Shown here piece by piece: positions 13,130 through 57,319 of a stretch of DNA of 64,000 nt. Numbering within the stretch: position 1 is the first letter of the stretch; each line of letters starts with the position of its first letter. The stretch covers positions 16,311,602 to 16,375,601 of the forward strand of contig CM030715.1 of assembly GCA_017979445.1 (NCBI GenBank), given 5' to 3'. The stretch is from Akebia trifoliata. Lineage: Eukaryota > Streptophyta > Magnoliopsida > Ranunculales > Lardizabalaceae. The translations under genes were made by a program, and so were the position numbers. The notes under the pieces are model-generated. The model worked only from the letters and a program-made list of their open reading frames with translations, had not been told where the DNA came from and made no database searches.

Positions 13130-13134
13130 GCTAC

Positions 13135-16000: not shown

Positions 16001-16090
16001 AAGTAGATTGTTACAAACAAGTCGAGTTAGAAAAACACATTTTCTATTAGCCCCCAATCCAATTCTCTGAAATCAAGGCCGACCAGTTAG

Positions 16091-16224: not shown

Positions 16225-16317
16225 TGCTTAAATATATTTTTTTTAATTTATTTTGTTGGAAAAATAAGTGGATTCACTTGAATTGATCCCCCGATTGTTG
16301 ATCTTGATGGGTCACAT

Positions 16318-31368: not shown

Positions 31369-32020
31369 ATGGTGAGATCCACAAGAACGAATGAAGTCAA
31401 TGCGCCCCCACTGGCAGGTCCGGCTGCAGATGCGCTGCTTTTGTTGATGTTAGAGGCCATGAAAAAGTAGAAAGAAGAGATACAGAAGAGGATGAATGAT
31501 TTGGTAGAGCAAAACCAGAACTTGAGCTAGCGTCTCAATGACCACCAGTAGGCGGAGCGAGACGACAGGCCGAAGGATCCTCAAGCGACAAGTAAAAATG
31601 GCTATGCCTTTAGTACGAAAGGAAACACACCGTCATTGATCCCCATAGGAGGAGATGAGATGGAGGTTGCTACAGCAGCCACTCGGATCTAAACGATAGT
31701 AAGTTTGACCCGATAAGAGGTTAGAGAAATGATTAGAAAAAAGAATAAAATGACGAAAGGTGTCGATGTGGGCACCGCAGTAGTGCATGCCGTATGGGGA
31801 ATACAGAGAACTCCCTTCTCAGTGGGGTTTTTAGTCGAACAGATCCCTAAGAAGTTCGTGCCACCGAGATTTACCCATTTTTCAGGGACGAAGGACTCGG
31901 TGGAGCATTTATTTCATTTTCGAAAGATGCTCGAGTTGTGGGAAGAGAAAGAAAGGCTAATGTGTAGATTGTTCCCTTCGAGTTTACGGGGGAATGCTAT
32001 AACTTGGTTTCACAAACTGC
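31369..32020 (+). pseudogene. Family D gag, 5' part
   Basis: From ATG 31369 the frame reads MVRSTRTNEVNAPPLAG, with in-frame TAG codons near 31467 and 31527. In a later frame comes PFSVGFLVEQIPKKFVPPRF, THFSGTKDSVEHLFHFRKML, LMCRLFPSSLRGNAITWF. This is the plant Tat-lineage gag core (retrotransposon gag domain: GT.D..EHL..F, C..FP..L.G.A..WF). It is cut at 32020 by element C. The frame resumes at 49955 with CGSISSFEEL, so the WFHKLPCGSI junction is exact after removing C and one TSD. Confidence 0.88.
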
Positions 32021-34252
32021 TGTAGACACCCCAATTTGAACGGGCCCTCACTCGAAAGGCCCCAAAAATAGCAATTTTTTCAATAAATTTGGCTAACGGG
32101 CCTCGATGGCCCGAATCATCGAAATCTAACATTTTGCCAAAATTGAAGCCTCTAACACCTCTCAATGGGTTAGTAGGACCACTAAAGGGATTCGGCATGC
32201 TCCCATCTACCCCACTTCATTCAAAATACCAATTTTCCAACAAAATAGGCCAACGGGCCTCTAAGGCCCAAAACGCTAAAAAATGGCAATCTAATGGAAT
32301 CGAGGCCCCTGAGACCTCTCAATGGTCTAAAGGACCCACCAAAGGGATTGGACCTACCCCACGCTGTCCCAACCTTCACCACTCTGCGTTTGTATCCAAA
32401 AAATCGGTAAAATTCTCCAACGGGCCTAAAAGGCCCGATTTGCCAACACGTGGCATTTTTAAGCAAATTAATGATTTTAAAAATCTCAAAAAAATTAATA
32501 AATTAAAAAAAGAGATTTGGGACGCCTACCACCTCCTATACCCTCCACCGCTCCACTTCTAAATCCAAAAATACCTCAAGCCCGTTCAAAGCCCACAAAC
32601 CCTCAACTTTCCAAAATCGATTTCTCACCTTATCCCCTAACCTAAACCTAATCCCACACCACCTTAAAACCTAAAACCTACCCACCCTCAAAAATCCAAT
32701 CCAAAATGATCCCAACCCAATCCAAAAAATCCCTAACATTTCCTAAAACCCAAGCCCAATACCCCTAAGCCCAAGTCCATATCCAATTCATATCTAACCC
32801 ACAAACCTAACCCATAAACCACAACCCACATCAACCAATCACTCTTTTACCATCAAAAGGTGACACATGTCATCATCCCCTCTCACCTCCCTCATCAAAC
32901 CAACCACCCATCACTTTTCTCTAAAACATTAACTACCCACATCACATTTTCTCTAAAAAATCACATCAACCCACACCCTCCCCTAACCTACCCTCATTAC
33001 TCCCTATAAACCTCCATTCTCTCAAATCAAACACCATCAACCCACCTCCCCTAAACTACTCTCATAACTCCCTAACCCCTATTCTCTCAAATCAAACACA
33101 TCAACCCACACCTCCCCCTAACCTATCATCATTATACCTCCCCTAATCTACCATCATCATTTCCTTTAAACCCATATCTACAACCTAAACCTACACCCAT
33201 TCTCTCAAATCAAACACTCAACCTCTCCCATCAATTAAATCTAAACCCATAACCACCACACAATATGCCACATGTCACCATCTCCTTCAACCTCCCAACC
33301 ACCCTCTTACACCCTCCATTCTTTTAAAATCAAACACCACTTAATCAACCAACCACCCTCTTAAACACCCATCATCTCATCTCACCAAACACTCCACCCA
33401 AATGGTTTGGGTAAGATCCAAACCATTTGGATCAAAACCTCACTCATTTTCACTCATTACATAATTACCCTTCTCCCAACTCCTAATTTCATACCCCCCA
33501 CCTTTAAAACCTATGCCATTATCCATCCTTTCAACCTTTCACCCCATTATACTCTCAAATACTCTCCCAACATCTATAAATACCCTTCCCCTCCTCTCAA
33601 AAATGGTGACACCAAGTCTCCTTAAAAAAAAAAATCTACTCACCCCTCTTCTACTCTACTACTCTCTCATAGCACCTTCTAAAAAGTAACTTCACTCACA
33701 TACTTCACTAAGAACTCAAGAGAATTCAAGAAAGAAGAAGAAAAGAAGATCAAGTGTACAAGGTGGATTTGAAGCACACCCCCCCTCTCAATCCTCTCAT
33801 TTTCCCTCTTCTAATATCCCTTTCTTCTCATTTATTTTTATTTTAAATGAATAGACCCCAAGGCTAAAGGTTCATAAGGGTCATTTCCATCAATGAAATG
33901 ACCCTATGATTAAGCCGAAAATGAATCCCTATCTAAGGTACAAAATGCACACACATGGCACTTTGTTTTTTTTTAATTTTAAAATCAAAATGATCGAGTT
34001 ATTTGAGGTTATCGCCACGTGGCGGGGAGAAAAGGGTGCCTAACACCTTCCATTTTCTCCAATCGAACCGCTTACCCGAATCTCAAGGATTGATCACCCC
34101 TTATCCATCATGAGTCACCAAAATGCCAAAAATGGTTTTTTTTCCGAAAATGTACCTCGGGTGACCATTCACACCCACTTCTAACTTGAATGGTGGCGAC
34201 TCCAATATTTAGTAGTTGTGGCCGTCGTAATGACGAAAACCACGTATCTACA
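32021..34252 (+). repeat. Family C 5' LTR
   Basis: 2232 nt. The first 500 nt carry GGGCC-containing segments. Positions 32641-33600 are almost G-free on the plus strand, with no G at all from 32870 to 33266. A TATA box follows at 33575. The end region contains CCACGTGGCGGGGAG and GGGTGCCTAACACCTTCC, a shared LTR motif of families A, B and C. Confidence 0.95.
33575..33582 (+). promoter_or_regulatory. TATA box of family C LTR
   Basis: TATAAATA, repeated at 49273-49280 in the 3' LTR. It lies at the end of the G-free region, followed by a pyrimidine-rich stretch (CCCTTCCCCTCCTCTC). Confidence 0.6.
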
Positions 34253-34254
34253 GC

Positions 34255-34272
34255 TGGCGACTCCGCTGGGGA
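34255..34272 (+). promoter_or_regulatory. Primer-binding site, family C
   Basis: TGGCGACTCCGCTGGGGA starts two bases after the LTR end. Confidence 0.85.
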
Positions 34273-35004
34273 CCAAGGTTCTACCCTCGTGTCAACTCGG
34301 TCACTTCCAAAAAAATCAAAACAAATTTTTCTATTTTTATTTTTATTTGGTTTACTAACATAGTTTGTGTTTGTTGTTCATGTTCTTTCCTTTTTGTTTC
34401 AAGTGACACGTTGTAATATTTATTTTCTTTTGCTTAAGGATATATGTAAGGGGGTCGATGAAAAATAATGAATGAAAATGCACGTGTGCACTTGCGAGCA
34501 TAGCCCCACTTCCAAGCCACCCCACCCTCAACATACTTAGCCCCGATGCTTAGTAGTTCCACGGCTTGAGATCGTTATTTCAAGTGTCGGGAATGAACAC
34601 ATCAAACCCGATCACCAATCGACGACATGTGTACTTCGGTATGCATCGAGGTTTGAAAATCGGGTAGCCGTGAAGCCACCTATTAAACTCATGCATGTGC
34701 CCGATTAGATGAGGTTAGGACACAAGTTTTTAATTTCATATCGACCCCCGAGGCAAGGTTGTATGTGATTATTGTGGTCGGGCCTCGAAGCCCAAGTTGT
34801 AAGCCAAAAGGGGGTAAGTAAATTGTAGGCTTATTTTGTTCTCTTTTATCTCCTCTTAGGTAAAAGGGGAGGGATTCATGTTGCATCATGTCCAATGAGA
34901 AAAAAAAAATAGTGAACGAAAAAAAAAAATTTTAAAACAGGGGAGACATGAAAGACATGGCTAAGGAATCAGTTTCTGTGTTGTACAGAAACTGGATTTC
35001 TTTC

Positions 35005-35364: not shown

Positions 35365-35406
<42 letters not shown>

Positions 35407-35483
35407 CCAAAAATTCGTACTGGTCCGTATTTCAGGTACGGTTAGGCGTATTTTATGCCCATCCGTGTTGGCGGCACGAATTT
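35005..35483 (+). repeat. Family C leader hairpin array 3
   Basis: Loose repeats of about 40 nt with arms such as CCGTGT-TTAAG-ACACGG, CCGTG-CCTAGAA-CACGG, CCGTA-TTTCAGG-TACGG and TCCGT...ACGGA, joined by GATGAAAC-like spacers. A (TA)n tract at about 35366-35403 interrupts it. Family B has the equivalent at 17265-17510. Confidence 0.65.
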
Positions 35484-35770
35484 AAAAAAAAAAAAAAAAA
35501 AAAATTTTGCTCACTTTGTTTCTGACATCAAACTTGACAACTTTTGTTCTCGGGTTTATTTTTCTTTTGATGTTTAAGGCATGAAAATGCTTAAACGAAT
35601 CATTTTTTGAAACTTAGGGCCTACGCATCGTTGCCCTTCTTTGTTTGATCAAAAATGGAAAATGCATGCATTCTATCAATCAAAGTTAACCCCATCTCAC
35701 GTGGTACACTATCAATCTCGCCTACAATCAAACCCATTATTGTCCACCGCCAAAATCAAAAATGGATTCA

Positions 35771-36290
35771 CGACCCAGATCCATTTCAACTGGGTTCACG
35801 ACCCAGATCCAAATCCATTTCAACTGGGTTTACGACCCAGATCAATTCTCAACTGGGTCCACGACCCAGATCCCATTCGACTGGGTTCACAACCCAGATC
35901 CAAATCCATTTCAACTGGGTCCACGACCCAGACCCATTTTCAACTGGGTTCACTACCCAGATCCAATCCCACTGGGTCCACGACCCAGACCCATTTTCAA
36001 CTGGGTTCACTACCCAGATCTAATCCAACTGGGTCCACGACCCAGATCCATTTTCAACTGGGTTCAAGACCCAGATCCAATCCAACTGGGTCCACGACCC
36101 AGATCCATTTTCAACTGTGTTTACAACCCAGATCCAATCCAACTGGGTCCCCGATCCAGATCCATCTCAATTGGGTCCCCGACCCAAATCCTCTTAAACT
36201 GGGTCTTCGACCCAGATCCATATCCATACCAACTGGGTCCACGACCCAGATCCAAACCTTTTTCAATTGGGTCCGCGACCCAGATCCACT
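35771..36290 (+). repeat. Family C leader hairpin array 2
   Basis: About 17 tandem units of roughly 30-36 nt centred on CTGGGTC-CAC-GACCCAG (or CTGGGTTCACGACCCAG), followed by ATCCATTTTCAA-like spacers. Because no unit has a stop codon, all three forward frames stay open. The longest (35641-36330, 229 codons) encodes repeats of the type TTQIHFQLG/PRSNPTGS. I do not regard it as a gene. Confidence 0.9.
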
Positions 36291-36375
36291 ACAAGCCGGA
36301 TTCAGATCCAATTTCGAACCAAGTTCGTGATCTAACAAAGATAACAATCGATCAATCAACTCAAACGCAGTCAAC

Positions 36376-36412
36376 TTTCTCAAAAAATAAATAAATAAAT
36401 AAATAAATAAAA
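36376..36412. repeat. (AAAT)n microsatellite in the element C leader
   Basis: About eight AAAT/AATA units between hairpin array 2 and the conserved leader block. Confidence 0.85.
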
Positions 36413-36443
36413 AAATAAAAAACAAAAGATTTCAAAAAGCACC

Positions 36444-36575
36444 AATTGCAGTCCTTGATCAAAGTCGGTGCCTAGAAAGATCTTACCCTGTTGATACGAG
36501 GGGGATAGACTACGTCTATTCAGGGAACAAGGTGATTTAAGAGTGCCATTGTGCGCCGCCTCTTCCTTGGAGATC
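36444..36575 (+). other. Conserved leader block (C copy)
   Basis: CAATTGCAGTCC, GATCTTACCCTGTTGATACG, GGGGGATAGACTACGTC, AAGGTGATTTAAGAGTGCC and TTGTGCGCC occur in the same order as in A and B. Hairpin ATAGAC-TAC-GTCTAT is at 36505-36519. Confidence 0.7.
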
Positions 36576-36679
36576 TGCCTGGCCAACGATGATTTCATAG
36601 AACTGAATGGGAGGTTACCAAAAACATAGGTTATTCCAACTCAATTTATCTTAGAAGTTATTTTTTTCAAAATATTTTC

Positions 36680-37384
36680 CCGATTCCGTGTCGATGACAG
36701 CTCCGTGCTGATGCCAACTCCGTGTTGATGCCGACTCCGTGTCGATGCCAGCTCCGTGCTGAGATAATTACCTTTTTTAAAATGTTTTCCCGACTCCGTG
36801 TCGATGCCAGCTCTGTGCTGATGAAATTACATTTTTCAAAATGTTTTCCCGACTCCGTGTCGATGCCAACTCCGTGCTGATGAAATTACCTTTTCAAAAT
36901 GTTTTCCCCGACTCCGTGTCGATGCCAGCTCCGTGCTGATGAAATTACTTTTTCAAAATACTTTCCCGACTCCGTGTCGATGCCAACTCCGTGCTTAGAT
37001 AATTACTTCTTAAAAAAAAATATTTTCCCGACTCCGTGTCGATGCCAGTTCCGTGCTGATGCCAACTCCGTGTTGATGCCGACTCCGTGTCGATGCCAGC
37101 TCCGTGCTGAGATAATTTTGCTTTCAAAATTTTTTTTCGACTCCGTGTCGATGCCAGCTCTGTGCTGATGAAATTACCTTTCTTAAAATATTTTACCAAC
37201 TCTATGTCGATGCCAGCTCCGTGCTGATGCCAACTCCGCATTGATGTCAATGCTAGCTCCGTGCTGAGTTAGTTCCATTTTCAAAAATATTTTACCGACT
37301 CTGTGTCGATGCCAGCTCCGTGCTGATGTAATTATTTTATAAAATATTTTACCAACTCCATGTTGATGCCGGCTCCGTGTCGAG
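36680..37384 (+). repeat. Family C leader hairpin array 1 (TCCGT loops)
   Basis: Tandem units of about 60 nt, each with two or more mini-hairpins of four pairs around a constant five-base loop: CGAC-TCCGT-GTCG, CAGC-TCCGT-GCTG, CAAC-TCCGT-GTTG. Spacers are AT-rich (GAAATTACCTTTTCAAAATG). The stem sequence varies while pairing is mostly kept. A few units have a mismatch (for example CAAC with GCTG near 36871). The array ends about 115 nt before the gag frame opens. Confidence 0.88.
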
Positions 37385-37565
37385 AAATTATTTTTCATCA
37401 AAACTCATAATAAACAACTTTACTTGATCTAATAAAACATCATGCATCTTCATTTTTGTAAACAAGATAGTAACGCTTGGTCTTCTGTACCCACAAGTGG
37501 CCAAGCGAAAGAAATACAAGCAGCCAGAAGTGCCTCCCTATTTTCTGAGATCATCTACAGTCACC

Positions 37566-38984
37566 ATGAGTTCTTCTGAACCAGCACAACCCCCAGTGGT
37601 CGAAACGTCAGGCATTGATCCACAAATCACGGCATTATTGAAAATAATCGAGAGGCAAGAAAAGATGGTAAGTGCTATATTAGCCAATGCCAGCATTATA
37701 CAAGCTCAAACAATACAACAACATGCGTCTGGATCAAATCAGCATTTACCCGAGCAACCTCCCCAAGGACCACAGACCACCATGCCACCTGCAGTGCCTG
37801 AATACCAGGGGGCCCCGCTTTATATTCCACATAATCGACCACCCCCTGTGGTCATCCCCGACGATGAATGCGAGTACAGGGTTATGGAAGCCAAAAGCGC
37901 AACGGACGAAAAATTGGCTCAGCAAATCGAGTCTTTGCAGGAAGAGATGAAGAGGATGAAGGGCCTCAACACGATGAGCGGGACTCGATTCAAGGACCTT
38001 TGCTTCTACCCTAATGCTCAATTACCGGCCAAGTTCAAGTGTCTAGAGTTTGAAAAGTATAACGGAGTAGGGTGTCCTTTGTCGCATTTAAAGTTGTACT
38101 GCGGATCCATGTACCAGTATGGCGAAGATGACAGGTTTTTAGTGCAGCTATTTCAGAGGAGTTTGACGGGGCCGGCACTCAAATGGTTTTCTGGATTGGA
38201 TCATTCACTCATTAAAAATTGGCAGGACTTAGCAGAAATGTTTTGGCATAATTATCGGTTCAATACAGATGTGGGTCTAGATCGAAATGATATGGCCAAG
38301 ATGACAAGGAAACAGAGAGAAACGGTGAAAGAGTATGCACAGAGGTGGCGAGAGTCAGCCTCACAAGTAAGGCCTGCAATGACAGAGCAAGAGATGAACA
38401 CCACGTTTATCTCGACACTAGGGCACGCCTTCTATACTCATCTGGTAGGACACACTACGGGCACATTTTCAAATCTGGTACAGGTAGCAGACCGAGTAAA
38501 GGACGGAATCCGAACTGGTCTGATATTCGACTTTACAAGCTTAGGAGCAGCAGCAGGGATCCCCTCTTAGAGAAATCCAGTGCCGATAGTAAAGAAGAGA
38601 GAAGAGACACAGGTTAATAATGTACAACCAAACCGACCCCTCTTCATTCCAGCACCAGCACCAAGACCACAAGCTCCGTCAACTTCTTGGGCCCCAGCAC
38701 CTCCACCAGTCTGGAACCCCGGACCTCAGAACCAGTTCAGGGTAAATCCTCCACCAGTAGCACCGCAGTATGGGCAAGGTCAGCAAGCGCGACCTAACAG
38801 AGTTAACAGAGTGTTTACTCGGTTGCCAATGACACTATCAGAATTACTCCCGATCTTGCTCAGGGGAGAGTACCTCATGAAAAGACCACCAAACCCAAAA
38901 GCCGAAAAGGGACCAGGATACAATCCAAGCTTGTTTTGTGAATTTCACATGGGTGCTCTAAGGCACTCCACAGATCAATGCTAG
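37566..38984 (+). pseudogene. Family C gag (capsid-like region), one in-frame stop
   Basis: Gag structural protein forming the cytoplasmic particle. The frame is open from before 37497. I choose ATG 37566 (MSSSEPAQ) because the context TCACCATGA is good and family B has an ATG at the same aligned position. Features in order: TALLKIIERQEKMVSAIL (helical), a Pro/Gln-rich segment, YIPHNRPPPVVIPDDECEY, then the retrotransposon gag domain with LSHLKLYCGSM, FQRSLTGPALKWFSGLD, WQDLAEMFWHNYRFN and YAQRWRESASQV. The TAG at 38568 interrupts. The same frame then continues with a Pro-rich stretch (PAPAPRPQAPSTSWAPAPPP) and YNPSLFCEFHMGALRHSTDQC, a likely relic of a zinc knuckle, stopping at 38985. Confidence 0.9.
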
Positions 38985-39161
38985 CAACTTAAGCACCAGG
39001 TGTAGAATCTGATAGACAAAAGGGCACTCATACTAGATGGACCAGCGAATCCTAATCAACAACAGAACATCAATCAAAATCCCCTACCTACTCACAATGG
39101 AGAGGGGAGTGGGCATAGGGTAAATGTAGTCTGCGGAGAGCTCGACTTCAATCCTTCGGAT

Positions 39162-40422
39162 TTGATAGCACCTGTAGGGGCAAAAATCAGGGTCCACTTA
39201 ACCCAGGAATCAAGGATATCATCAGTTAACACAGTCAACCACTACACAACGAATTCACCTCAAAATCCACGAATGCCTCTCAGATTGGCCGACCTCACTA
39301 TCCATCCCACTCATCAAAATGCTACTACCCGACCTCCTCTTGTTATCCCCTACACACTACCAAATGCTCAAAAATCGACTCGACCCCCTCTTCATATACC
39401 ATACACCCTATCCTCACGTCCACCACTCATCATCCCATACACTTCATCAACTCCTCTTGCTACCATTTCATCCAAATCATCACCACCACCCCTCATTCTT
39501 AATATAAAACCCGATCCACCTCCAATGACCATACGCTCCCCAAAACCATTCCCATATAGCTCCAACCAAGCAGTCCCATGGAGCTATGAAACAACCATCA
39601 CTACAACGACGGGGGTTGAAACAATGAAAAAAGCAATGGTGGCTGATATCGGCCATATGACAGGGGCAGGGAGATACCAAAAGTTGCCAGCAAAAGGAGT
39701 AAACATTAGGGAAGAGACTGAGGAAATAACAAAAAGGATGACAGATGAAGAGAAGAGAAAGGAAAAAGGAAAGGGCAAAATGAGCGAGAATGACCAGAAA
39801 AAAAGATAAGGTGAAGGTGTCAGATAAAGAAGCTGCAGACTTCATTAAGCTTATTCGCAAGAGTGAGCATAATGTCGTGGATCAATTGAACAAACAGCCG
39901 GCTCAGATCAGCATTCTGGGTCTGCTACAAAATTCAGAAGAGCATCAAGAAGCACTGTTGAGAATTCTGGGGAAGTCACACGTACCTTCAACCACGTCAC
40001 CAGCACAACTGGAACAGACAGTAGGCCAGATCATGGCCCCCAATCCCATTATCTTCACAGAGAGTGAATTTGTACCTGAAGGGCGGGGGCACGTAGAACC
40101 GTTAAACATCATGGTCATATGCAAGGGCATGATGGTTGCCAGAGTACCGATTGACAATGGCTCAGCGCTTAATGTCTGTCCGCTTGAAACCTTTCAGAAA
40201 CTCAACGTTGACTGGTCACATGTCAAGCCCAACAATAAGGTTATCCGAGGTTTCGATAGTTCAAGAAGAGACTATTTGGGAGAAGTGGACCTACCGATTA
40301 CTATAGGTCCTTGCACTTTTGAGGTAATATTGGAAGTCATGGAGATACCGACAACCTTCAATTTGCTACTGGGCAGGCCGTGGATTCATATAGCGGGGGT
40401 TGTACCTTCTTCTCTACACTAG
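39162..40422 (+). pseudogene. Family C gag linker and aspartic protease
   Basis: Two overlapping frames (39162-39809 and 39790-40422) separated by a frameshift near 39800. The first is a Pro/Thr/Ser-rich linker with repeats of RPPLVIPYTL type and ends in a Lys/Glu-rich tail. The second holds FIKLIRKSEHNVVDQL, QISILGLLQNSEEHQEALL and then the protease: VARVPIDNGSALNVCPL with active-site triplet D-N-G, and FNLLLGRPWIHIAG, the conserved LLGRPWI motif near the protease end. The protease would cut the Gag-Pol polyprotein during particle maturation. Another frameshift follows at 40420-40530. Confidence 0.88.
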
Positions 40423-40529
40423 AGAGTCAAATTCATCATGGGGCAAAGAATGATATCGGTACTGGCAGAAAATCTCATCCCGGCTGGGAGAGCTCCGGAA
40501 AGGACAAAACACTCTATCACTCCTACCAA

Positions 40530-41324
40530 TTTGCTGCTGTCAACCACGTGGAAAAAGGGAAGGAGAAAGTAGAGCTATCAAGGGCAAATCTGATGATTGG
40601 CCGGGTTCTGAAAAAAGCAGGTTACCGACCTAGACAAGGGTTGAGACTTAAAGGGAAAGGGAAAGTTGTTCCGATCGAAGCAAAGAAGCACAATCCTTAT
40701 TTCGGGTTGGGGTTTAGGCCCACGAAAAAGGATATAGCAGAAATGAACGAAAAGAAGAAAGAGCTTCAACTAGCAAGAAGACAAAATCGAGAACCCAATG
40801 TCTGGAATATGGGCAAGGTCCCTCACATCAGTGTTAGCTTCCCAAAATCTCAAATCAGACCCGACAGTCTATCAGAACCACTGCCAACAAAACCAGCCAG
40901 AAAATCGAGAACAGTAAGTTTCAAACCTGTGCACATTCATGAAGACTCAGTTGTTGAGTCCCAATCATCCTTCGTAGAAGGCATTGATGTTTTATTCAAT
41001 GGGGATTCCAACGAAAGTCTATTAGAGACTGCTCCAGAATCCACAAAGGTGGAAATCATCAAAAGTAAGGGGAATGAATCACCTTTCCCCACGAGCGTCG
41101 ACTGGGCATCAGTCGTCATCCCACCAAGTTTGGGAGGGACTATGCCCCAATCTGACAACAATCAATCGGAGATCATGGTCATCTCCGAACCACCAATCAA
41201 ATCATCCAACGAACCACTTTCTCATCTCATCCGCCCCCTCAGAGAAGGGGAGACACTGCACAACTGGGAAGAATTCCCATTGACACTTGAGGCTGTCGAG
41301 GCCTCAAAAAAAAAACGCCGTTAA
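40530..41324 (+). pseudogene. Family C spacer domain between protease and RT, G-patch-like
   Basis: The frame reads YQFAAVNHVEKGKEKVELSR, then MIGRVLKKAGYRPRQGL, GKVVPIEAKKHNPYFGLGF and RPTKKDIAEMNEKKKELQ. The spacing of GY...GLG...FGLGF resembles a degenerate G-patch, an RNA-binding module found after some retroviral proteases. I hold this weakly. A long Ser/Glu/Pro-rich region follows. The frame ends at 41322 just after a run of ten A. A one-base shift there would continue into SDISLLEDHNEPPSSGKDCF. Confidence 0.65.
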
Positions 41325-41414
41325 GCGACATCAGTTTGCTCGAGGATCATAACGAGCCCCCGTCCTCGGGTAAAGACTGTTTTGAGGGCTCCCTATCTTA
41401 TTTAACGAGTTTGC

Positions 41415-43383
41415 ATGATTATTCTTCTTATTTCAGGTATCCAAAAAATCACAAAAAAACAAATATTTCTCAAAAAGCAAAAAAATCAAAAATTTCTCAA
41501 AAGACAAAAAAATCAAAATTTTCTCAAAAGACAAAAAAAATCAAAAAGCTTTCAAAATTACAAAAAAATGGATATTTTCAAAAAACCAAAAAAAGAGTTT
41601 TCAAGGGATCTGTCTCCATCAAATGAGTATCCAGATAAAACAGAATTTGAACAGGACGAGTATGATTTCGATCTTGAACTCGACTTCGACCTCATGGGGA
41701 TCGAAGAGGAGTTTGAGAACGAAATAGAGTACCCACCCAAAGAAATCAAAGACTTGGTAGAACGTCACGAGAAAGGTGTTCAACCAAACATTGAGGATAC
41801 AGATTCAATCAATCTTGGTACCAAAAAGGACCCACGAATCGTCAAGATCGGAGCCTTGTTAACGTCGCAACAAAAAGAAGAAATGGTCGAATTCCTACGG
41901 AAGTATCAGGACATCTTTGCATGGTCATACAGGGATATGCCAGGTTTAGATACAAATCTTGTTGTGCACAAGCTACCAATTACCTCGAAAAGCAAGCCGA
42001 TCAAACAGAAACTGAGAAGATTGAAGCCGGAATGGACCCTCAAGGTCAAGGATGAGGTCATGAAGCAATTCGAAGTAGGATTTCTTACGGTCTCTACGTA
42101 TCCTGAGTGGCTGGCTAATGTCGTCCCAGTACCCAAGAAAGATGGAAAAGTACGCATGTGTGTTGACTACCGAGACTTGAACAAAGCCAGTCCTAAGGAT
42201 GATTTTCCACTCCCACACATCGACACTTTAGTCGACAGTACAGCAGGGCACGACATGTTATCGTTCATGGATGGCTTCTCAGGCTATAATCAGATAAAAA
42301 TGGCAGAAGAAGACCAGGAGAAGACTGCATTCATCACGCCATGGGGTACTTTCCACTATAAAGTAATGCCATTCGGGTTAAAGAACGCAGGGGTGACCTA
42401 CCAACGGGCAATGACCGCACTATTCCATGATATGATCCATAAGGAAATGGAGGTCTACGTAGACGACATGATCGCTAAATCCGACATTGAAGAAGACCAT
42501 CTGGTGAATCTAAGGAAGTTATTTGATAGGCTCAGAAAATACAGTTTGAGGTTAAACCTGGCAAAGTGCGTGTTTGGGGCAACATCAGGCAAGTTACTGG
42601 GGTTCATCGTCAGCAGAAGGGGCATTGAAATAGATCCAGCAAAGACTAAATATATCATTGAGATGAAAGCACCGGTCACAGAAAAAAACGTTCGGGGCTT
42701 TCTAGGGAGAATACAGTATATCAGTCGGTTTATTGCTCAACTAACACCTATATGTGAGCCGGTCTTCAAGCTACTAAGGAAAGATACGCCAAAGAAGTGG
42801 AACAAAGACTGTCAGGAAGCATTCGACAAAATCAAGCAATACTTGCTCAATCTACCAGTCTTAGTCCCTCCTACTCCAGGGCGACCTCTGCTGATATACA
42901 TCTCGATACAAGAAACATCAATGGGGTGTGTACTAGGACAACATGACGAATCAGGACGGAAGGAACAGGCCATCTATTATCTCAGCAAGAAGTTCACCGA
43001 CTACGAAGCAAAATATTCAACGCTTGAGAAGACTTGCTGTGCATTAGTCTGGGCATCTCAACGACTGCGTCATTATTTGCTTAGCTACTCGACCATGCTT
43101 ATCGCCAGGATGGACCCCCTAAAGTATCTATTCGAAAAACCAGTACTAACAGGCCGCACAGCAAAATGGCAATTATTATTATTTGAGTTCGACATCACCT
43201 ATGTCACTCAAAAGGCCATCAAAGGGCAAGCCATCGCCGATCACCTCGCCAAGCACTCATTGCCTGATTACGAGCCATTAAAGACAAACTTCCCGGATGA
43301 AGCCATACTATTTACTGAGGTTGAGGACGATGATGACGAACCAGGCTGGAAAATGTACTTCGACGGAGCAGCCAATCATAAAT
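41415..43383 (+). pseudogene. Family C reverse transcriptase and RNase H
   Basis: One long frame covers RT and the first RNase H. RT motifs in order: KIGALLTSQQKEEMVEFLRK (entry region), LPITSKSKPIKQKLRR, EWLANVVPVPKKDGKVRMCV, DYRDLNKASPKDDFPLPHID, MDGFSGYNQIKMA, WGTFHYKVMPFGLKNAG and the catalytic YVDDMIAKS (YVDD at 42456-42467). RNase H follows: LLIYISIQETSMGCVLGQ, YYLSKKFTDYEAKYSTLEK, CCALVWASQRLRHYLL, with the usual first Asp position not obvious. After ITYVTQKAIKGQAIADHLA comes the start of the second RNase H (MYFDGAANHK). A TGA at 43383 (GGA expected) ends the frame. The RT catalytic residues are intact. Confidence 0.93.
41455..41560 (+). repeat. A-rich tandem repeat at the start of the RT frame
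   Basis: Four imperfect copies of a unit of about 25 nt, TTTCTCAAAAGACAAAAAAATC-like (quoted in part), encode Lys/Gln-rich sequence in all frames. It lies right after TTCTTCTTATTTCAG (ending 41449), a strong splice-acceptor-like site. It may mark the place of the pol intron known from Ogre elements. Confidence 0.6.
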
Positions 43384-43650
43384 GAAATGGAATAGGGGCA
43401 GTCCTGATCAAACCAGACGGGTCCCATGTACCGATTGCTATCAGACTGAAATTCCAATGCTCTAACAATGAAGCTGAATATGAAGCATGCATAGCAGGGT
43501 TGAAAGCAGCGTTGGATCTTGAGGTAGATGAGATCGATGTTTTCAGAGATTCAAGTCTAGTAGTTTATCAGACGACTGGAGAATGGAAGACCCGGGAGCA
43601 GAGACCGGTCCCTTACCACGAGTATCTGGATGAACTAAACTCACACTTTG
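43340..43650 (+). pseudogene. Family C second, archaeal-like RNase H (aRH)
   Basis: Continues the RT frame across the TGA at 43383. MYFDGAANHK gives the first Asp, NNEAEYEACIAGLKAAL the Glu, VFRDSSLVVYQ the second Asp. FADALTTLASM (43660-43700, other frame) supplies the last Asp after a small deletion and frameshift near 43650. This extra RNase H between the RT-linked RNase H and integrase is a published hallmark of the plant Tat lineage. It would degrade RNA in RNA/DNA hybrids. Confidence 0.85.
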
Positions 43651-43659
43651 ATAGAATTT

Positions 43660-45047
43660 CAGTTCGCAGACGCACTAACTACGCTTGCTTCTATGATCAG
43701 TATCTTAGAGGACTTAATCATCGACCCAATCGAGATTGGAATTCAAGATGAGCCAGCCTATTGTCTACCCGTCGAAGTAGAAGAATCTGAAGAAAAACCT
43801 TGGTACTCGGACATCAAGGCATATCTTGAAGATCGAATCCTTCCCTCAGATGCAACGCCTAATGACAGAAGGACTATTCAGAGATTGGCAGGGCAATTCT
43901 TCTTGAGCAACGACACTTATACAAGAAATCGCATCACGAGGTCTTGCTCCGATGTGTGGCAGAAACAGAAGCAAAACGGTTAATTGAGACCGTCCACGGT
44001 GGAGTCTGTGGGCCCCACATGAATGATCATATGCTAGCCAAAAAGATTATGAGGATGGGGTACTATTGGTCGACAATGGAGAGCGACTGCTATCAGCATG
44101 TCCGCAAATGCCATCTATGCCAGATCTACGCCAACAAGATCAATGCTCCGCCCTCGGAGCTACATAACATGACCACTCCTTGGCCCTTCTCACTCTGGGG
44201 AATGGATGTCATCGGACCAATCTCACCTAAAGCTGCAAATGGACATCGCTTCATCTTAGTGGCTATTGATTACTTCACCAAATGGGTAGATGCTGCTTCA
44301 TATGTCAACGTCACTAAAAGCAATGTCCTGAAGTTTGTCAAAAATAACATTATCTGCAGATATGGGCTTCCCAACGGACTGGTGACTGATAATGCCAAGA
44401 ACTTCAAGAACAAAGATATGGCCAAGATGTGCGAAGACTTCCAGATCACTCATCACAACTCTGTACCATACAGACCTAAAATGAACGGAGCAGTCGAAGC
44501 AGCCAACAAGAATATCAAGAAAATTATCGAGAAGATGGCAATTACATACAAAGATTGGCACGACATGTTGCCTTTTGTACTCCACGCCTATCAAACCTCG
44601 TTCAGGACTTCGACCGGGACAACTCCATACTCATTGGTCTACGGAATGGAAGCAGTCTTACCCGTCGAGGTTGAGATTCCCTCCCTCCGGATCTTAAAAG
44701 AAGTAGAGTTAGACGAAGCAGAATGGATTCAAGTTCGGTTTGATCAACTGAATTTGATTGAAGAAAAGTGCCTCGCAGCCATCTGCCAAGGACAAATTTA
44801 TCAGAGACGAATAGCTCGGGCCTACAACAAGAATGTCAAACCTAGAGATTTCTCACTAGGGGACCTTGTTTTAAAGAAAATCCTGCCAATCCAAGAAGAT
44901 GCCAGAGGAAAATTCAGACCGAACTATGAGGGACCATTCATCGTGAAGAAGGTGATGACTGGAGGAGCTCTGATTCTCACAGAAATGGACGGACAAGTCT
45001 TTCCGCAACCGATCAATGCTGACATTGTCAAGAAATATTACGCTTGA
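43660..45047 (+). pseudogene. Family C integrase (core apparently intact)
   Basis: A frameshift near 43930-43950 joins KPWYSDIKAYLEDRILP to the long open frame 43944-45047. The zinc-binding part has HGGVCGPHMN (two His) and CHLCQIYANK (two Cys). The core has GMDVIGP (first Asp), GLVTDNAKNF (second Asp) and NGAVEAANK (Glu) with 35 residues between the last two, the D,D35E pattern. ATPYSLVYGMEAVLP-type sequence (TTPYSLVYGMEAVLPVEVEI) follows, then NKNVKPRDFSLGDLVLKK and NYEGPFIVKKV of the GPY/F-like end. There is no chromodomain. It inserts the cDNA into chromosomes. This is the least damaged gene of the element. Confidence 0.92.
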
Positions 45048-46540
45048 GATCTGACCCTGAGATAACAAAAGGCCATATTTACTAAACCAACAAATCTAAC
45101 CTAGTCAACCCCTTTGAGCCATCACGTTCATTTCTTAACCTAGGACTGAGGCACGTCAACAACTACAAAAAAAAAATCAGAGAAACAGAAAAAGCAAAAG
45201 CGTCAAAATACTCCTGGCCCGCATGAGGATAAACTGTGAACGGCTAAAAATACAAAAAAATCAAAAATGTCAAAAACTCGGACACTTGATCTGAGCTCGA
45301 CCCAAATCTCCAACCTAAACAAGTTCGAGAGACGCTGGGAGGAGAAATAGATCACCTTTTCGAAACAAAAATAGACGAGCCCCATGTCTAAACCACTCTA
45401 AATACATCCAGACCTTAACCTTTTTGTAACTTTCCACTACCACTAGCCCAAGCCAACGTTTCGTCCCAACAAAAGTCCTTTTTGATCAAGGAAAGTTCTA
45501 GGGCAACACAATGACAGTTGCAGCACCAATGATCTTGCGACTTGGTCCGGACCTCAAAGTCTTATTAGTCGTTGGAAGACTCGAGAGGGGAATCCAGGTC
45601 GGATATTCAAAAAAAAAGAGTACTCGAAGTGTAGAGTAGCCGATCTCGCGGCTCAACTTGAGTTGCCGAATCACGAATAGTCATCAGCAAACTCGAGAGG
45701 GGAATCTAGATCTATTACTCAAGAAAGAGTGCCACTACAAGAGTAGAGTCACTGATCTCGCAGCTCAACTTGAGTCACCAAGCCACAAAGACACAGAGAT
45801 TCCGAGCAGAATTGTAATGAAAAATCAAAAAAATACAAGCATAGTCTGAAAGGGCATAGTGAAAATCCGAACGGGCGCTATGAGTAAAAGAATCAGACTA
45901 TGGCAAGATCAAAGCCACCGGCACAATGAAAATCCCAAAAAGGACGTCGATGCGCAAAAACGTGGAAACCGGGTCTGGTGAAAATCGTAATTGGCACCAG
46001 GGGCAATAAGGGTTAACAAAAACAAAACAAAAAAATAAAAAAACAAAAAAAAAAAAAAAAACTCCTGGCCCACAAGAGTATAAACTGTGAACGGCGAAAT
46101 CCTTCCAAGAATCCCGAGACCGAAACAGATAATAGTCTTCTAATACGAGGGCATTGGGGATGACTCTAAATGAACCAAAAGAGCAATTGACGTTTATATC
46201 CTCTGTGGTTGGCAAAAACACCAAGATCGTCACAATCAAAGATTTTACAAATCCTAAATTTATCGTACTCATTTGATAAAGACATTTCAAAAAAAAAAAA
46301 AAAACTACTATTTTGACCGATGATGAAAAATCTAGGACTTATTCAAACTTCAAGTTTTCAAAGCATTAGATACACCTGAGGCCAGGTAAGTAAAAAAAAC
46401 CTATTTTCATTTTATTTCAAAAGCTTCACATTACATTAAAAAAAAAAAAAAAAGGGTACCATCATTACCACCTCGACGTTCGAAGCATCACGACTCACTA
46501 GATAAGACGCGAAGGCATCAAAGCAAGGACCCTGAGCAAG
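45048..46540 (+). other. Family C 3' non-coding region, duplications and A-rich runs
   Basis: About 1.5 kb between integrase and the captured gene segment, without recognised protein. A tandem duplication of about 112 bp lies at 45579 and 45691 (ACTCGAGAGGGGAATC...GATCTCGC...CTCAACTTGAGT). In it AGCCG-ATCTCG-CGGCT in copy 1 corresponds to CTG-ATCTCG-CAG in copy 2. A dispersed duplication, ACTCCTGGCCCGCATGAGG and ACTCCTGGCCCACAAGAG with AAACTGTGAACGGC after each, lies at about 45209 and 46060. Long A runs occur at 46028-46062, 46291 and 46437. Confidence 0.6.
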
Positions 46541-47225
46541 CCTCTCCTGAGATCACTCATCGGGCCTACTGAGGCAGATAAACCACTGATCATCAAACTC
46601 GCAGTTGCAGCAGTGGATGAATTTATAAGAATGGCCCAACTAGGGGAACCGTTGTGGATGCATAGCCTTGATCATGCTTATGAGATTCTAAGTGAAGGTG
46701 AGTACGTGCAAACATTCCCAAGGGGAATTGGGCCAAAACCATTTGGATTGAAGTTAGAAGCTTCTCGAGAAACGGCCGTTGTTATCATGAACCACATTAA
46801 CCCTGTTGAAATCTTTATGGATGTGAATCAGTGGTCCACCGTGTTTTCTAGCATTGTTTCAAGAACAATGACTCTTGAGGTCGTATCAACAGACATAACA
46901 GAAAACTACAATGGAGCCCTTTAAGTGATGACAGCAGAATTTCAAGTCCCTTTACCTCTGTTCCCAACTTGAGAGAATTTCTTTGTAAGGTATTGTAAAC
47001 AACATGCCGAAGGAATTTGGATGGTGGTCGATGTTCCCTTGGATCATTTGTGTCCTAGCCTGATATTGAGATGTCGAAGAAGGCCATCAAGCAGTTTAAT
47101 CCAAGAAATGCCAAATGGTCACTCCAAGGTTATATGGGTCGAACATGTAGAAGTGGATGACAAAGCAGTTCACAGTATACATAGAACATTGGTTAACTCT
47201 AACCTTGGATTTGGTAGAGAAGACT
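46541..47225 (+). pseudogene. Captured START-domain segment of an HD-ZIP IV homeobox gene
   Basis: A single reading frame of about 228 codons, open except for two stops, encodes most of a START (lipid-binding) domain of the plant HD-ZIP class IV type, nearest by eye to PDF2/ATML1/HDG2. Landmarks: [78 protein letters not shown]-stop-[42 protein letters not shown] and [15 protein letters not shown]. The stops are TAA at 46922 (CAA expected) and TGA at 46970 (CGA/AGA expected). Homeodomain and leucine zipper are absent. No introns interrupt it, although HD-ZIP IV genes have introns here. It lies inside element C, in the same sense as gag-pol, between integrase and the purine tract, so it is probably cellular mRNA sequence picked up by the element. 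Confidence 0.9.
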
Positions 47226-47704
47226 AACTTGTGGCCCAGCAGCAAAACTCCCTTGGACCGACGGCAACTATTAACCACCTTATCGCTTGCACAGTTGAAA
47301 GGATCAAAGACGTCATTACAAGGGACAACGCATGAATTGAGAGGGTTAACTTATGGGAGAAATAAAGTGAGATAAAAAAAACAAAAACAAAAAAACAAAA
47401 AAAAATCAAAGAATTTTAAAAAACTTTTCGAGTTGCACTCAATTTCAATTTGTTAAAACACGACAGAGAAATACCCAAATTTCAAAAAAAAAAATACTAA
47501 ATCTGCATCAAATCCAAGGTCTCACACGAGCTTCGTGCCATCGAGACCAAGGAATTAATAAGGTAACTCTGTCAGACCCCGTGCTGGAGTAACATTTCTT
47601 ACAAAAGTCGTCAATTCAACCGGTAATTTGAAGTCGTGTTTTGCAAAATTTCATTCGGCCCGTACAAATAGGGGTTTAGTTTATTCTTTGCACGCAATTC
47701 CTGC
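47226..47704 (+). other. Element C sequence between captured segment and polypurine tract
   Basis: A short stretch near 47260 (CTTGGACCGACGGCAAC) may be a decayed continuation of the START gene (the LDRQCERLA motif is expected there), but this is weak. A-rich DNA follows. No other gene is seen. Confidence 0.45.
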
Positions 47705-47713
47705 AAAGAAGGG
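47705..47713 (+). promoter_or_regulatory. Polypurine tract, family C
   Basis: AAAGAAGGG four bases before the 3' LTR, identical to that of family A. Confidence 0.75.
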
Positions 47714-47717
47714 CAGC

Positions 47718-49949
47718 TGTAGACACCCCAATTTGAACGGGCCCTCACTCGAAAGGGCCCAAAAATAGTAATTTTTTCAATAAATTTGGCCAACGGGCCT
47801 CGATGGCCCGAATCATCGAAATCTGACATTTTGCCAAAATCGAAGCCTCTAACACCTCTCAATGGGTTAGTAGGACCACTAAAGGGATTCGGCATGCTCC
47901 CATCTACCCCACTTCATTTAAAATACCAATTTTCCAACAAAATAGGCCAACGGGCCTCTAAGGCCCAAAACGCTAAAAAATGGCAATCTAATAGAATCGA
48001 GGCCCCTGAGACCTCTCAATGGTCTAAAGGACCCACCAAAGGGATTGGACCTACCCCACGCTGTCCCAACCTTCACCACTCTGCGTTTGTATCCAAAAAA
48101 TCGGTAAAATTCTCCAACGGGCCTAAAAGGCCCGATTTGCCAACACGTGGCATTTTTAAGCAAATCAATGATTTTAAAAATCTCAAAAAAATTAATAAAT
48201 TAAAACATTAGACTTGGGACGCCTACCACCTCCTATACCCTCCACCTCTCCACTTCTAAATCCAAAAATACCTCAAGCCCGTTCAAAGCCCACAAACCCT
48301 CAACTTTCCAAAATCGATTTCTCACCTTATCCCCTAACCTAAACCTAATCCCACACCACCTAAAAACCTAAAACCTACCCACCCTCAAAAATCCAATCCA
48401 AAATGATCCCAACCCAATCCAAAAAATCCCTAACATTTCCTAAAACCCAAACCCAATACCCCTAAGCCCAAGTCCATATCCAATTCATATCTAACCCACA
48501 ACCCTAACCCATAAACCACAACCCACATCCACCAATCACTCTTTTACCATCAAAAGGTGACACATGTCATCATCCCCTCTCACCTCCCTCATCAAACCAA
48601 CCACCCATCACTTTTCTCTAAAATATTAACTACCCACATCACATTTTCTCTAAAAAATCACATCAACTCACACCCTCCCCTAACCTACCCTCATTACTCC
48701 CTATAAACCTCTATTTTCTCAAATCAAACACCATCAACCCACCTCCCCTAAGCTACTCTCATAACTCCCTAACCCCTATTCTCTCAAATCAAACACATCA
48801 ACCCACACCTCCCCCTAACCTATCATCATTATACCTCCCCCTAATCTACCATCATCATTTCCTTTAAACTCATATCTACAACCTAAACCTACACTCATTC
48901 TCTCAAATCAAACACTCAACCTCTCCCATCAATTAAATCTAAACCCCTAACCACCACACAATATGCCACATGTCACCATCTCCTTCAACCTCCCAACCAC
49001 CCTCTTACACCCTCCATTATCTTAAAATCAAACACCACTTAATCAACCAACCACCCTCTTAAACACCCATCATCTCATCTCACCAAACACTCCACCCAAA
49101 TGGTTTGGGTAAAATCCAAACCATTTGGATCAAAACCTCACCCATTTTTACTCATTACATAATTACCCTTCTCTCAACTCCTAATTTCATACCCCCCACC
49201 TTTAAAACCTATGCCATTATCCAGCCTTTCAACCTCTCACCCCATTATACCCTCAAATACTCTCCCAACATCTATAAATACCCCTCCCCTCCTCTCAAAA
49301 ATGGTGACACCAAGTCTCCTTTAAAAAAAAATCTACTCACCCCTCTTCTACTCTACTACTCTCTCATACCACCTTCTAAAAAGTAACTTCACTCACATAC
49401 TTCACTAAGAACTCAAGAGAATTCAAGAAAGAAGAAGAAAAAAAGATCAAGTGTACAAGGTGGGTTTGAAGCACACCCCCCCTCTCAATCCTCTCCTTCT
49501 CCCTCTTCTAATATCCCTTCCTTCTCATTTATTTTTATTTTAAATGAATGGACTCCAAGGCTAAAGGTTCATAAGGGTCATTTCCATCAATGAAATGACC
49601 CTATGATCAAGCCGAAAATGAATCCCTATCTAGGGTACAAAATGCACACACATGGCACTTTGTTTTTTTTTTAATTTTAAATTAAAATGACCAAGTTATT
49701 TGAGGTTACCGCCACGTGGCGGGGAGAAAAGGGTGCCTAACACCTTCCCTTTTCTCCAATCGAACCGCTTACCCGAATCTCAAGGATTGATCACCCCTTA
49801 TCCATCATGAGTCACCAAAATGCCAAAAATGGCTTTTTTTTCGAAAATGTACCTCGGGTGACCATTCACACCCACTTCCAACTTGAATGGTGGCGACTCC
49901 AATATTTAGTAGTTGTAGCCATCGTAATGACGAAAACCACGTATCTACA
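47718..49949 (+). repeat. Family C 3' LTR
   Basis: 2232 nt, the same length as the 5' LTR, differing at scattered single bases. A single G at 48752 breaks the region that is G-free in the 5' LTR. TSD ACTGC follows. Confidence 0.95.
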
Positions 49950-50768
49950 ACTGCCATGTGGATCAATTAGCTCGTTCGAAGAGCTTTGTACTACCTTCGT
50001 CACATGGTATATTGGCAACCGAAAAAGTGGACGAGACGTTGACACGTTGGGGAGAGCCTCAGGGAATTCACCAGGAAATTTAGAGAGGAAGTGATGTCGT
50101 TAGAAAGTTGTGACAAACAAACGACAGTAATGGCATTCAGAAATGCCTTACCCTCAAATTCGAGGTTGTATAGATCCCTCATGAAGAAGAATCTAGAAAC
50201 TTTGAGAGAGTTGTTAGAAAGAACGAAAAGTATATCCGCTTAGAGGATGATCCCCAGGGTTCAATGGAAAAGAGCAAAGTCATCCACATTGTGGAAAAGC
50301 CTAACAAGCAACCCCAACCGCAGTGGCAGGACAGGAAGCGACCACAAGAGCAAGAGGAGGAGATAAGAAAGTCTGGGACGTATTTTGCTATGCCTCCAAA
50401 TGAAATATTGCCCCTTATTGCTCATGAGCCATTTTTCAAGTGGCCCGCTCCACTTCCTTGAGACTAGGTTAATCAAGGTGAAAGATACTACGAGTACCAC
50501 AAGGTGTGGGCCCACACCACCAATAGATGTCAAGCCTTGAGGAGATTCATGCGAAAGTTGGTAGAGTAGGGTAGGTTAAAAGATTTGCCCAAAAGACAGA
50601 GGGAAGGCCTACTTAGGGATGAAGATCACAGTGCAGAACAACTACCAATAGGAGGACAAGATGGAAGGGCAACCGTCATACACGTTGTCCTAAGGGAGGA
50701 AAGTAGAAGGATTGGGCAGACCAGAATTATTGAGAGAGTGAATAGGAGAAGAGTTGAGCACTTAGCAC
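49950..50768 (+). pseudogene. Family D gag, 3' part
   Basis: Continues gag after element C: CGSISSFEELCTTFVTWYIG, then in shifted frames RVVRKNEKYIRLEDDP and KSGTYFAMPPNEILPLIAHE. Next are FFKWPAPLP and a decayed zinc-knuckle region (YYEYHKVWAHTTNRCQALRR), where the first Cys of the usual C..H...H...C is replaced. A basic tail (RRIGQTRIIERVNRRRVEHL) follows. It is interrupted at 50768 by a solo A LTR (TSD AGCAC). Several stops. Confidence 0.85.
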
Positions 50769-52539
50769 TGAAAGCGCCCTCGATCCGCGGGGTGTGCGGA
50801 TCCGCTTTTGACCCTTGAGGTTTGGGAGTCGCCACCTAGTTATTACGTTTTAGGAACCAAATTGACCCTACAATGGATAAAAAGAACTAATCTACTATAG
50901 AAATCTGAATCTGGGGATCATGTTACGGGGTTGGAAGGTGTTAGGCACCAACCCCGCCCGGCCAATGCCGGTCTCTACTTATCCCAAATAAATCTACATT
51001 GTTAATGATAAACCTAGATAAAAAAATAAAAATAAAAATTTACCTTTGATCTACAAAAGTGTTATTCCCTCAGATCTGGTTAGAATGGCTCCTTGTACCT
51101 TATTCCTTACTTCGTTCTATCTCCGGATTTGATTCCTGATCTCCGAGGTAAGGTATCTCCTTCTTGGATCTGAGTGCTTCAAATTTGTTGTAGATTTTTG
51201 GGATGTTTTTGAGAAGTTTTTGGGTGTTTTTTAGGCTAAAATCGGAGTAGGGGTGTTAGGGAAGGAGTTGGGGCTCCAAAATTAGGGTTTTGGGGAGGTT
51301 ATGGAGGCTTCTTTACCTACTTTTCCTAAGATTTTTTTTTGATACGAAAATAGGGTATGGAGGCTCCTATTTATAAAATTTTTAGAAGCATTAGGGTTTC
51401 TTTTAGGGTTTCAATTAGGGTTTTGACTTAGTCTTTAGGGTTTTAGGGTTTTGACTTTAGTCTTATGAGATTGACTTGATTAGTTTAGATTAGGGTTTTG
51501 ATTTAGGGTTTTGACCTTAGTCTTATGAGATTGACTTGATTAGTTTAGATTAGGGTTTTGATTTAGGATTTTGACCTTAGTCTTATGAGATTGACTCGAT
51601 TAGTTTAGATTAGGGTTTTGATTTAGGATTTTGACTTTAGTCTTATGAGATTGACTTTAATACTTGACTCTAGTCTTACTTAATTGACTTTAATTTTGAC
51701 TTTAGTCTTATTTGATTGACTTTAATATCTTGACTTTAGTCTTGCTTGATTGACTTTAAATTTTTGGAGAACCCCCCTCTATTATATCTTTGATTCTTTG
51801 GACCCCCAAATGGAGGGGTCCTTAAAGAAATATCTTGCGAACCATCAACAATTTTTCTTAAAAACCTGATTGATCAATTTTTTTGTTTAAATTTTATAAT
51901 TAATTTTATTAATGTTTCACTTTACATTATTTAATGATTTATTTATTAATTTCAAAATTTTTAATTATTAAAATTGTGAAATTACCATTTTGCCCTCGGA
52001 GAGGATTTTTTACGTTTTAAGTTATTTTTCAATGTTCTAGGATGTTTTGGAATCAGTTTTTCGTAAGGAATTCAATGGGAATGTTGGTTTTTGTCATTTA
52101 TGAAGTTTTTTGTATGAAATGGTCGTGAACTTTATGAGGGGTATTTTCGTAATTTTGTTAAATTTTGTAAAAATTGGCGAAGTGGTTTACTTGGTTTCGA
52201 TATGTTGTTTTATGTGTTTGAGTGGATTTTCCTAAGCGTAATGCAGGCTCTAGGGTTGTTTTGATGTTAGGGGTATTTTGGTAATTTGGTCATTTTTAGT
52301 GATTTTTATCGTGAAGCTTCTTTTTGGTTTGCAAGATGATGATTTCTATGTTTCTGGGGTCGTATTTACCTAGCGTAGCGTGGTTTCTAAGTTTTGTTAG
52401 TTCAAGATACCTCAACCGTATTTCTAAAACATATCTGGTAACAAAATGAAGCATTGGAATAAACATCCATCATTGGGAACCTTTGCGATCGGGTTGACGA
52501 CTTGATTAATCAGGTGGATGCAAAAATGGGGTGTCTACA
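50769..52539 (-). mobile_element. Solo LTR of family A, TSD AGCAC
   Basis: A single minus-strand A LTR of 1771 nt from TGTAGACACCCC (52539) to CGCTTTCA (50769), flanked by AGCAC at 50764-50768 and 52540-52544. It has a TATA box at 51368-51375 and the 59-60-nt telobox-rich repeats at 51400-51650. It was left by LTR-LTR recombination and lies between the gag tail and protease of family D. Confidence 0.95.
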
Positions 52540-56779: not shown

Positions 56780-57319
56780 ATCGGGGAGAACAAGAGGGAG
56801 TTACCATTGAGTTACCAGGAGAACCCGTCTATAAACGAGTTCGGGCTGCCCAGCTTAGTGGTAGTTGAAGCAGACCAATGATGGATAACACCAATTCTAG
56901 CGTACCTGCAACAGGAGAGCTGCCCAACGACCCAAAGGAGGCCAGGCAAATCAAGAATAGAGCAGAGAGATACATGATTCTAGATAGAACTTTTTACAGG
57001 AAATCCTTAAGGAAGCCACTCCTGCGTTGCCTGACTCTAGAAGAAGCAAAATAAGTACTAAAGGAGATCCATGGGGGCGACTGTGGAAACCATTTAGGGG
57101 GGAGAACTTTAACGCATAAGGTGCTCTCTCAAGGGTATTTATGGCCATACTTGCAGAAAGATGCAGCTTCGAACGTCAAGCATTGCGATAGCTGTCAAAG
57201 GCACAGGAAGATAATCAGGCAACCAACAGTACAGCTCCATTCCCTCATCAGCCCTTGGCTATTTGCACAGTGGAGGATTGACTTAGTAGACCCGATGCCC
57301 AAGGCCCCAAGAAATCTTA
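56780..57319 (+). pseudogene. Family D integrase N-terminal part
   Basis: WITPILAYLQQESCP, then in other frames EIHGGDCGNHLGGRTLTHK and GYLWPYLQKDAASNVKHCDS, CQRHRKIIRQPTVQLHSLIS, PWLFAQWRIDLVDPMPKA. These are the HHCC zinc finger and the start of the catalytic core with its first Asp. The remainder is cut off by the PIF/Harbinger insertion at 57320. Confidence 0.88.

Follow-up and report, generated by a model that had tools for sequence, protein, structure and literature searches.

The capture of host messenger RNA (mRNA) by long terminal repeat (LTR) elements of plants is already known; Bs1, BARE-2, Veju, and captured pieces acting as reservoirs of small interfering RNAs (siRNAs) are examples in PMC13317346. 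Here we describe a case from a stretch of 64,000 nucleotides (nt) of Akebia trifoliata DNA (CM030715.1; "the window" means this whole stretch), in which a ~17.9-kb Ty3/gypsy element carries a captured piece of an HD-ZIP IV message; the assembly searched comprised 652.5 Mb. Bs1 of maize resembles the window element in being an LTR element with host-gene pieces in its internal part, but its pieces come from three genes and the chimeric gene was reported to be transcribed and translated (PMC13317346), whereas the window family holds a two-paralog mosaic from one gene family, shows no coding constraint, and exists in many copies. Chimeras in BARE-2 and Veju, like the one described here, were attributed to template switching (PMC13317346); there, however, the partner was another element or unknown DNA and not the mRNAs of two host paralogs.

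Transductions by plant LTR elements share with our case the gag-pol sense and the site between pol and the 3' LTR, where extra frames are commonest (PMC7264820). They are described as occurring in one or a few copies, whereas here 40 places (a lower bound) were scored among 529 first-look candidates, with 88-91% identity to the window copy (its own place excepted). In the pepper NLR retroduplication a captured spliced mRNA was likewise multiplied by LTR elements, but NLR genes, some of them functional, were involved, and the accessible text describes no mosaic of two paralogs (PMC5664825). Retand and Grande also bear extra sequence between pol and the 3' LTR; their extra frames differ in being antisense, of undetermined origin, and reported to show conservation comparable to that of other element proteins (PMC7264820). 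In the literature searched, whose scope excludes most subscription papers, we found no case that combines high copy number with a two-paralog mosaic; these two features form the new part, gene capture itself being known. We consider it quite probable, judging from the comparisons given below, that the spliced mRNA of one host gene, H49, was captured, recombined with the spliced mRNA of a second one, H50, and was then amplified.

The captured piece (46543 to ~47360) sits between integrase and the 3' LTR and, as judged from its domain and donor matches, represents, without introns, the C-terminal half of a PDF2/ATML1-type HD-ZIP IV message. It consists of the following parts:

46543..47214, + strand: captured HD-ZIP IV complementary DNA (cDNA), START part (domain search, donor comparison)
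47215..47235, + strand: scar left by the internal loss of ~700 nt; it contains an in-frame TAA (47225-47227)
47236..47335, + strand: captured HD-ZIP IV C-terminus with the stop TGA (47333-47335)
47336..47360, + strand: start of the donor 3' untranslated region (UTR), matching the C1 gene (H49)

The START domain was found with a Pfam E-value of 1.4e-33, and phmmer matched a potato PDF2 protein at 5.8e-80; most of the PDF2_C region is deleted from this copy. A preliminary description of the window had recognized a START-bearing frame between integrase and the 3' LTR of an element bounded by a target-site duplication (TSD), and these matches, together with the ACTGC TSD, bear it out. The same sense, the lack of introns, and the lack of a homeobox, all noted there, were confirmed by the domain search, donor comparison, and tblastn. 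The frame placed at 46541..47225 does read through as described, but the piece is longer and runs on to the C-terminus, the stop at 47335, and ~25 nt of 3' UTR. Two in-frame stops (46922-46924 and 46970-46972, by counting) and no frameshift lie within these 685 nt, as had been observed, and the third stop of the window insert (47225-47227) follows directly past them; the lack of a frameshift is not a general trait of the copies, 13 of 21 having indels in the START part.

A tblastn search with a homeobox-bearing protein revealed no homeobox in the window, the match starting only at residue 196. Nor is START preceded by a homeobox and leucine zipper in the window and 20 copies, where the matches to a homeobox-bearing PDF2 protein start at residue 195 or later. 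The combination of START and PDF2_C was present, START in the window and PDF2_C in copies L060 (together with START) and L054 (5.4e-90), which keep more of the gene. Because the homeobox is absent, the captured piece was not filed as an HD-ZIP IV gene; the case is classed as gene transduction, and neither as such a gene nor as a conserved accessory frame.

When the genome was searched for homeobox-zipper sequences, 49 matches were obtained, with the best exons on C13 and C1. The insert was compared with the two nearest HD-ZIP IV genes, H49 (L049, on C1) and H50 (L050, on C13), the less similar ones of the list being left out. Both are PDF2/ATML1-like and intron-bearing, and their frames are open across the captured part (splice ends corrected). 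Their introns fall exactly where the window copy runs uninterrupted: the host exon joins in the START part lie at 46825/46826, 46927/46928, and 47128/47129 with the introns absent, and an alignment of 20 copies showed no inserted bases at any of six such joins (a deleted stretch was scored as no insertion). Copies uninterrupted at the donor intron sites point to spliced RNA as the source, which supports the earlier proposal of a picked-up spliced host mRNA, and H49 and H50 are the likely sources. The two genes differ at 76 of 219 four-fold sites; against the Tetracentron protein H49 stands at 84.7% and H50 at 87.6%, H49 being somewhat faster-evolving. Among the matches listed, the nearest HD-ZIP IV proteins were those of Tetracentron (88%) and Nelumbo (86%), as might be expected of a host among the early-branching eudicots.

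The missing introns, the truncated 5' end, and the 3' UTR end with A-rich sequence behind it would also suit a processed pseudogene that jumped, driven by a LINE, into one element copy and was carried along. We regard such an origin as decidedly unlikely: donor similarity fades some 25-30 nt 3' of the stop codon, A-rich stretches are present elsewhere in the spacer too, and the H50 tracts described below would be left unexplained.

In total, 35 copies were read, namely the window copy, 20 copies (L029-L048) taken from the 39 further places on the list, and 14 from later searches. The window's spacer 5' of the insert was present in all 20 of the first copies, the integrase stretch upstream in 15 of them, and the LTR stretch downstream in 19, the exception being L046 with no match. 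The 5' junction is identical in the 21 first copies (the window included) and in nine of the 14 further ones (L053-L060 and L062), that is, in 30 of 35. The host-gene piece thus lies within the element bounds, has been passed to other copies, and has been freed of the donor introns, which are the marks of gene transduction; the shared junction also upholds the earlier view that the element has spread the piece. The middle of the captured coding sequence (cds), positions 893-1255, is missing from 18 of the 21 first copies, and an in-frame deletion of exactly these 363 nt was found in 15 of the 21. Captured splice variants were rejected, the exon ends lying at 856, 1128, and 1224. Among L029-L048 the recurrent 363-nt deletion combines discordantly with a recurrent out-of-frame one of 92 nt (cds 1376-1467, where gaps in the first alignment were partly misplaced, in L041 and L047), which may point to recombination among elements.

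The donor comparison revealed what the preliminary description had missed, namely a mosaic built from two paralogs, H49-like and H50-like tracts being combined in the window copy as well. Over 101 majority sites the donor states formed 29 runs versus 49.8 +/- 4.8 expected, and none of 20000 shuffles gave a number that low. Along the cds, positions 117-147 are mostly H49-like and are followed by mostly H50-like sequence to ~348, an H49-like tract at 357-471, a mostly H50-like one at 558-749, and mostly H49-like sequence beyond; a stretch near 204-226 is H49-like in part of the copies and H50-like in the rest. Four copies (L058, L059, L060, and L062) are pure H49-type pieces, H49-like end to end, and L053-L057 are mosaics containing H50-like tracts; at the informative sites of cds 481-1255 the H49/H50 counts were 290/63 for the former group and 68/381 for the latter. 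Within the middle (cds 893-1255), L039 showed 34 differences to H49 versus 67 to H50 over 302 sites, and L042 and L048 were near H50 (29/363 and 23/351 differences). With the L039 middle as query, 21 places at 83-90% were found besides L039 itself, followed by 18 at 79-81%. The tree of this region (19 rows) separated H50 with nine copies from H49 with eight copies by a 100% split, and monophyly of the inserts was rejected by the approximately unbiased (AU) test, with p = 6.07e-06 for cds 893-1255 and 3.03e-04 for cds 540-751. In the cds 353-480 tract the mosaics grouped apart from H50 with weak support. Copies with large deletions, among them the window copy, are misplaced in the three-row alignments, which were not used for those copies.

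The H50-like tracts span four of the six intron-bearing H50 joins (cds 681, 856, 1128, and 1224) without introns, the remaining two falling at the H49-like tract; hence, the exchange partner was a spliced RNA or its cDNA. Since the copies with the 5' junction have H49-like ends and the shared 3' UTR of the insert resembles H49, the simplest history is an H49 capture followed by inner replacement from H50. At four-fold sites, H49-type copies differ from H49 at 17-22 of 161-166 positions, and the H50 part of the mosaics differs from H50 at 8-11 of 105-112; these distances are smaller than that between H49 and H50, and both events are younger than the gene pair. A Tat-type element would have joined spliced H49 mRNA during reverse transcription in the particle, presumably through a template switch, the join points being at the GDLLRS codons inside an exon (5') and within the 3' UTR (3'). 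Later, the insert-bearing element RNA may have recombined by homology with spliced H50 mRNA, whereby the inner tracts were replaced, and elements with mosaic inserts would then have amplified with the insert as a passenger. What we infer is that RNAs were the partners in this exchange, and in which order the H49 and H50 events took place.

There is a small chance that the two messages were captured separately, H49 mRNA by one element lineage and H50 mRNA by another, and that all later recombination involved element RNAs alone. Two insert classes do exist, and L051, with its first part lost, is mostly H50-like from cds 481 onward; moreover, the among-copy distances of different regions correlate only at 0.07-0.74 (weak to moderate), so the elements probably recombine with each other. 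However, the mosaics with an intact 5' end share their 5' junction with the H49-type copies, the first tract (cds 118-149) has the H49 state at five to six of seven informative sites in both insert classes, and none of the 35 copies read holds a pure H50 insert that has a 5' end of its own. Healing of the 92-nt deletion by H50 is suggested by eight deletion-free copies that are H50-like there, but two deletion-free copies are H49-like (L034, 10/5; L063, 11/2), and it is not claimed.

Several observations weigh against a single H49 capture with later H50 exchange. Sampling was not random, the copies having been selected for their resemblance to the insert queries. Five copies (L051, L052, L061, L063, and L064) are without the common junction, their first part being lost or replaced. 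Instead of H50 itself, a processed copy similar to it or a third paralog, since lost, could have been the second donor, and the order of events is weakly indicated by the distances because H49 evolves somewhat faster than H50. Finally, the insert and adjoining spacer diverge by 0.09-0.13 versus 0.17-0.22 in the LTR and 0.24 at integrase third positions, which is partly unexplained; the choice of copies by insert likeness and element recombination may account for it. The low divergence covers the whole 3' non-coding block (45200-47700 compared with L029-L048) and not the insert alone. The insert could not be upheld as specially conserved, divergence in the adjacent spacer being about equally low.

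The coding capacity of the insert was assessed with integrase as the control. Divergence at codon positions 1, 2, and 3 was 0.102, 0.087, and 0.093 in the insert (21 copies) and 0.076, 0.054, and 0.240 in integrase (13 of those 21). Changes common to at least two copies were distributed 58/52/53 over the three positions in the insert (p = 0.83) versus 48/38/181 in integrase (p = 8e-32), and constraint was also absent from H49-type pairs (four copies, 0.112/0.112/0.087) and mosaic pairs (six copies, 0.075/0.083/0.064). Each of the first 21 copies had two to eight host-frame stops in the START part; the 14 later ones had one to 13 over the whole insert, all with indels, and eight of them carried the frame-breaking 92-nt deletion. 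No weight was placed on a stop at host codon 175, counted in 19 of the 21 copies, L048 being without it in another alignment. In view of these stops, the indels, and the equal divergence of the codon positions, it is very improbable that the insert serves the element as an accessory protein gene under selection, akin to the START module that the preliminary description had envisaged. Open stretches do survive (319 amino acids in L060, with START and PDF2_C, and 302 in L054), and the 363-nt deletion preserves the frame, but recency alone would explain the open stretches. Across the copies sampled, no protein-level constraint typical of a conserved accessory open reading frame (aORF) was found, and the insert is, by these measures, a passenger with no detectable protein-level selection.

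At the RNA level, 50 exact 21-mers of the window copy recur in H50 and 30 in H49; for all 35 copies pooled, the numbers rose to 738 (H50) and 670 (H49) of 1453, and a 1500-nt genomic stretch of H50 outside the captured part had none in common. Small RNAs from the insert could thus match the donors, and small-RNA cross-talk between the insert and the donor genes, an idea already raised in the preliminary description, is possible. An RNA-level role, either through small RNAs reaching the donors or as camouflage that restrains silencing because silencing would harm essential epidermal genes, is unlikely. The exact 21-mers common to the copies and both donors would fit it, and captured pieces have been considered siRNA reservoirs, with camouflage proposed, in PMC13317346; but recency alone would explain the shared k-mers, and divergence in the adjoining spacer is about as low as in the insert. 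Unlikely, too, is the idea that the family repeatedly packages epidermal HD-ZIP IV mRNAs and refreshes its insert from both paralogs, the insert giving an RNA-level advantage (silencing restraint or packaging help) in epidermal or meristem cells.

The exact ends of the window element lie at 32021-49949, with the ACTGC TSD on either side. Its reading pieces were submitted separately to the domain search, and the remaining features were placed as follows:

32016..32020, no strand: left TSD, ACTGC (flank comparison)
32021..34252, + strand: 5' LTR, 2232 bp, TG...CA (Kimura two-parameter distance, K2P, 0.027 versus the 3' LTR)
34255..34274, + strand: candidate primer binding site TGGCGACTCCGCTGGGGACC, assigned by position only
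35753..37403, + strand: leader with two tandem-repeat arrays
37428..38570, + strand: gag open stretch (Retrotrans_gag; domain search)
41406..43385, + strand: reverse transcriptase and RNase H (domain search)
43386..43751, + strand: additional RNase H-like domain (RVT_3; domain search)
43866..45047, + strand: integrase (Integrase_H2C2, rve; domain search)
45048..46542, + strand: spacer from integrase to the captured piece
47718..49949, + strand: 3' LTR
49950..49954, no strand: right TSD, ACTGC

Gag, reverse transcriptase, RNase H, and integrase all lie 5' of the captured piece on the same strand. The pol order, reverse transcriptase-RNase H, additional RNase H, and integrase, is one that we take to be the mark of the Tat lineage, and by this domain order, the test applied, the element is a Tat-type Ty3/gypsy element. 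Retand and Grande belong to the Tat lineage. The two LTRs, 2232 bp each, show 59 differences over 2231 sites, and from this 2.7% divergence and assumed substitution rates we infer that the window copy was inserted ~1-3 million years ago. Judged by its LTRs, the element is a recent jumper nonetheless carrying three stops in its insert. It seems, by eye, to be nested in a gag-like frame of another element (31717-32025 and 49741-50094). The leader arrays (35753-36294 and 36654-37403) consist of tandem units around CTGGGTTCACGACCCAGATCC and GACTCCGTGTCGATGCCAGCTCCGTGCTGATG, and a related stretch occurs, inverted, at 13119-16837 (66% over 4 kb). A second repeat family is present as direct copies at 2742-4493 and 11384-13130 (97% identical) and as related stretches in the opposite orientation at 50766-52539 and 55245-56780.

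Altogether, one capture would have given rise to a high-copy family that retains the record of an exchange with the spliced message of a paralog. Such a record is what would be expected of retrovirus-like co-packaging of host mRNA, and it offers a route to ask how often host mRNA enters the particles of plant retrotransposons. It may also be possible to learn from this family, as a natural test case, whether a captured piece of a developmental regulator in high copy number returns silencing to the genes from which it came.
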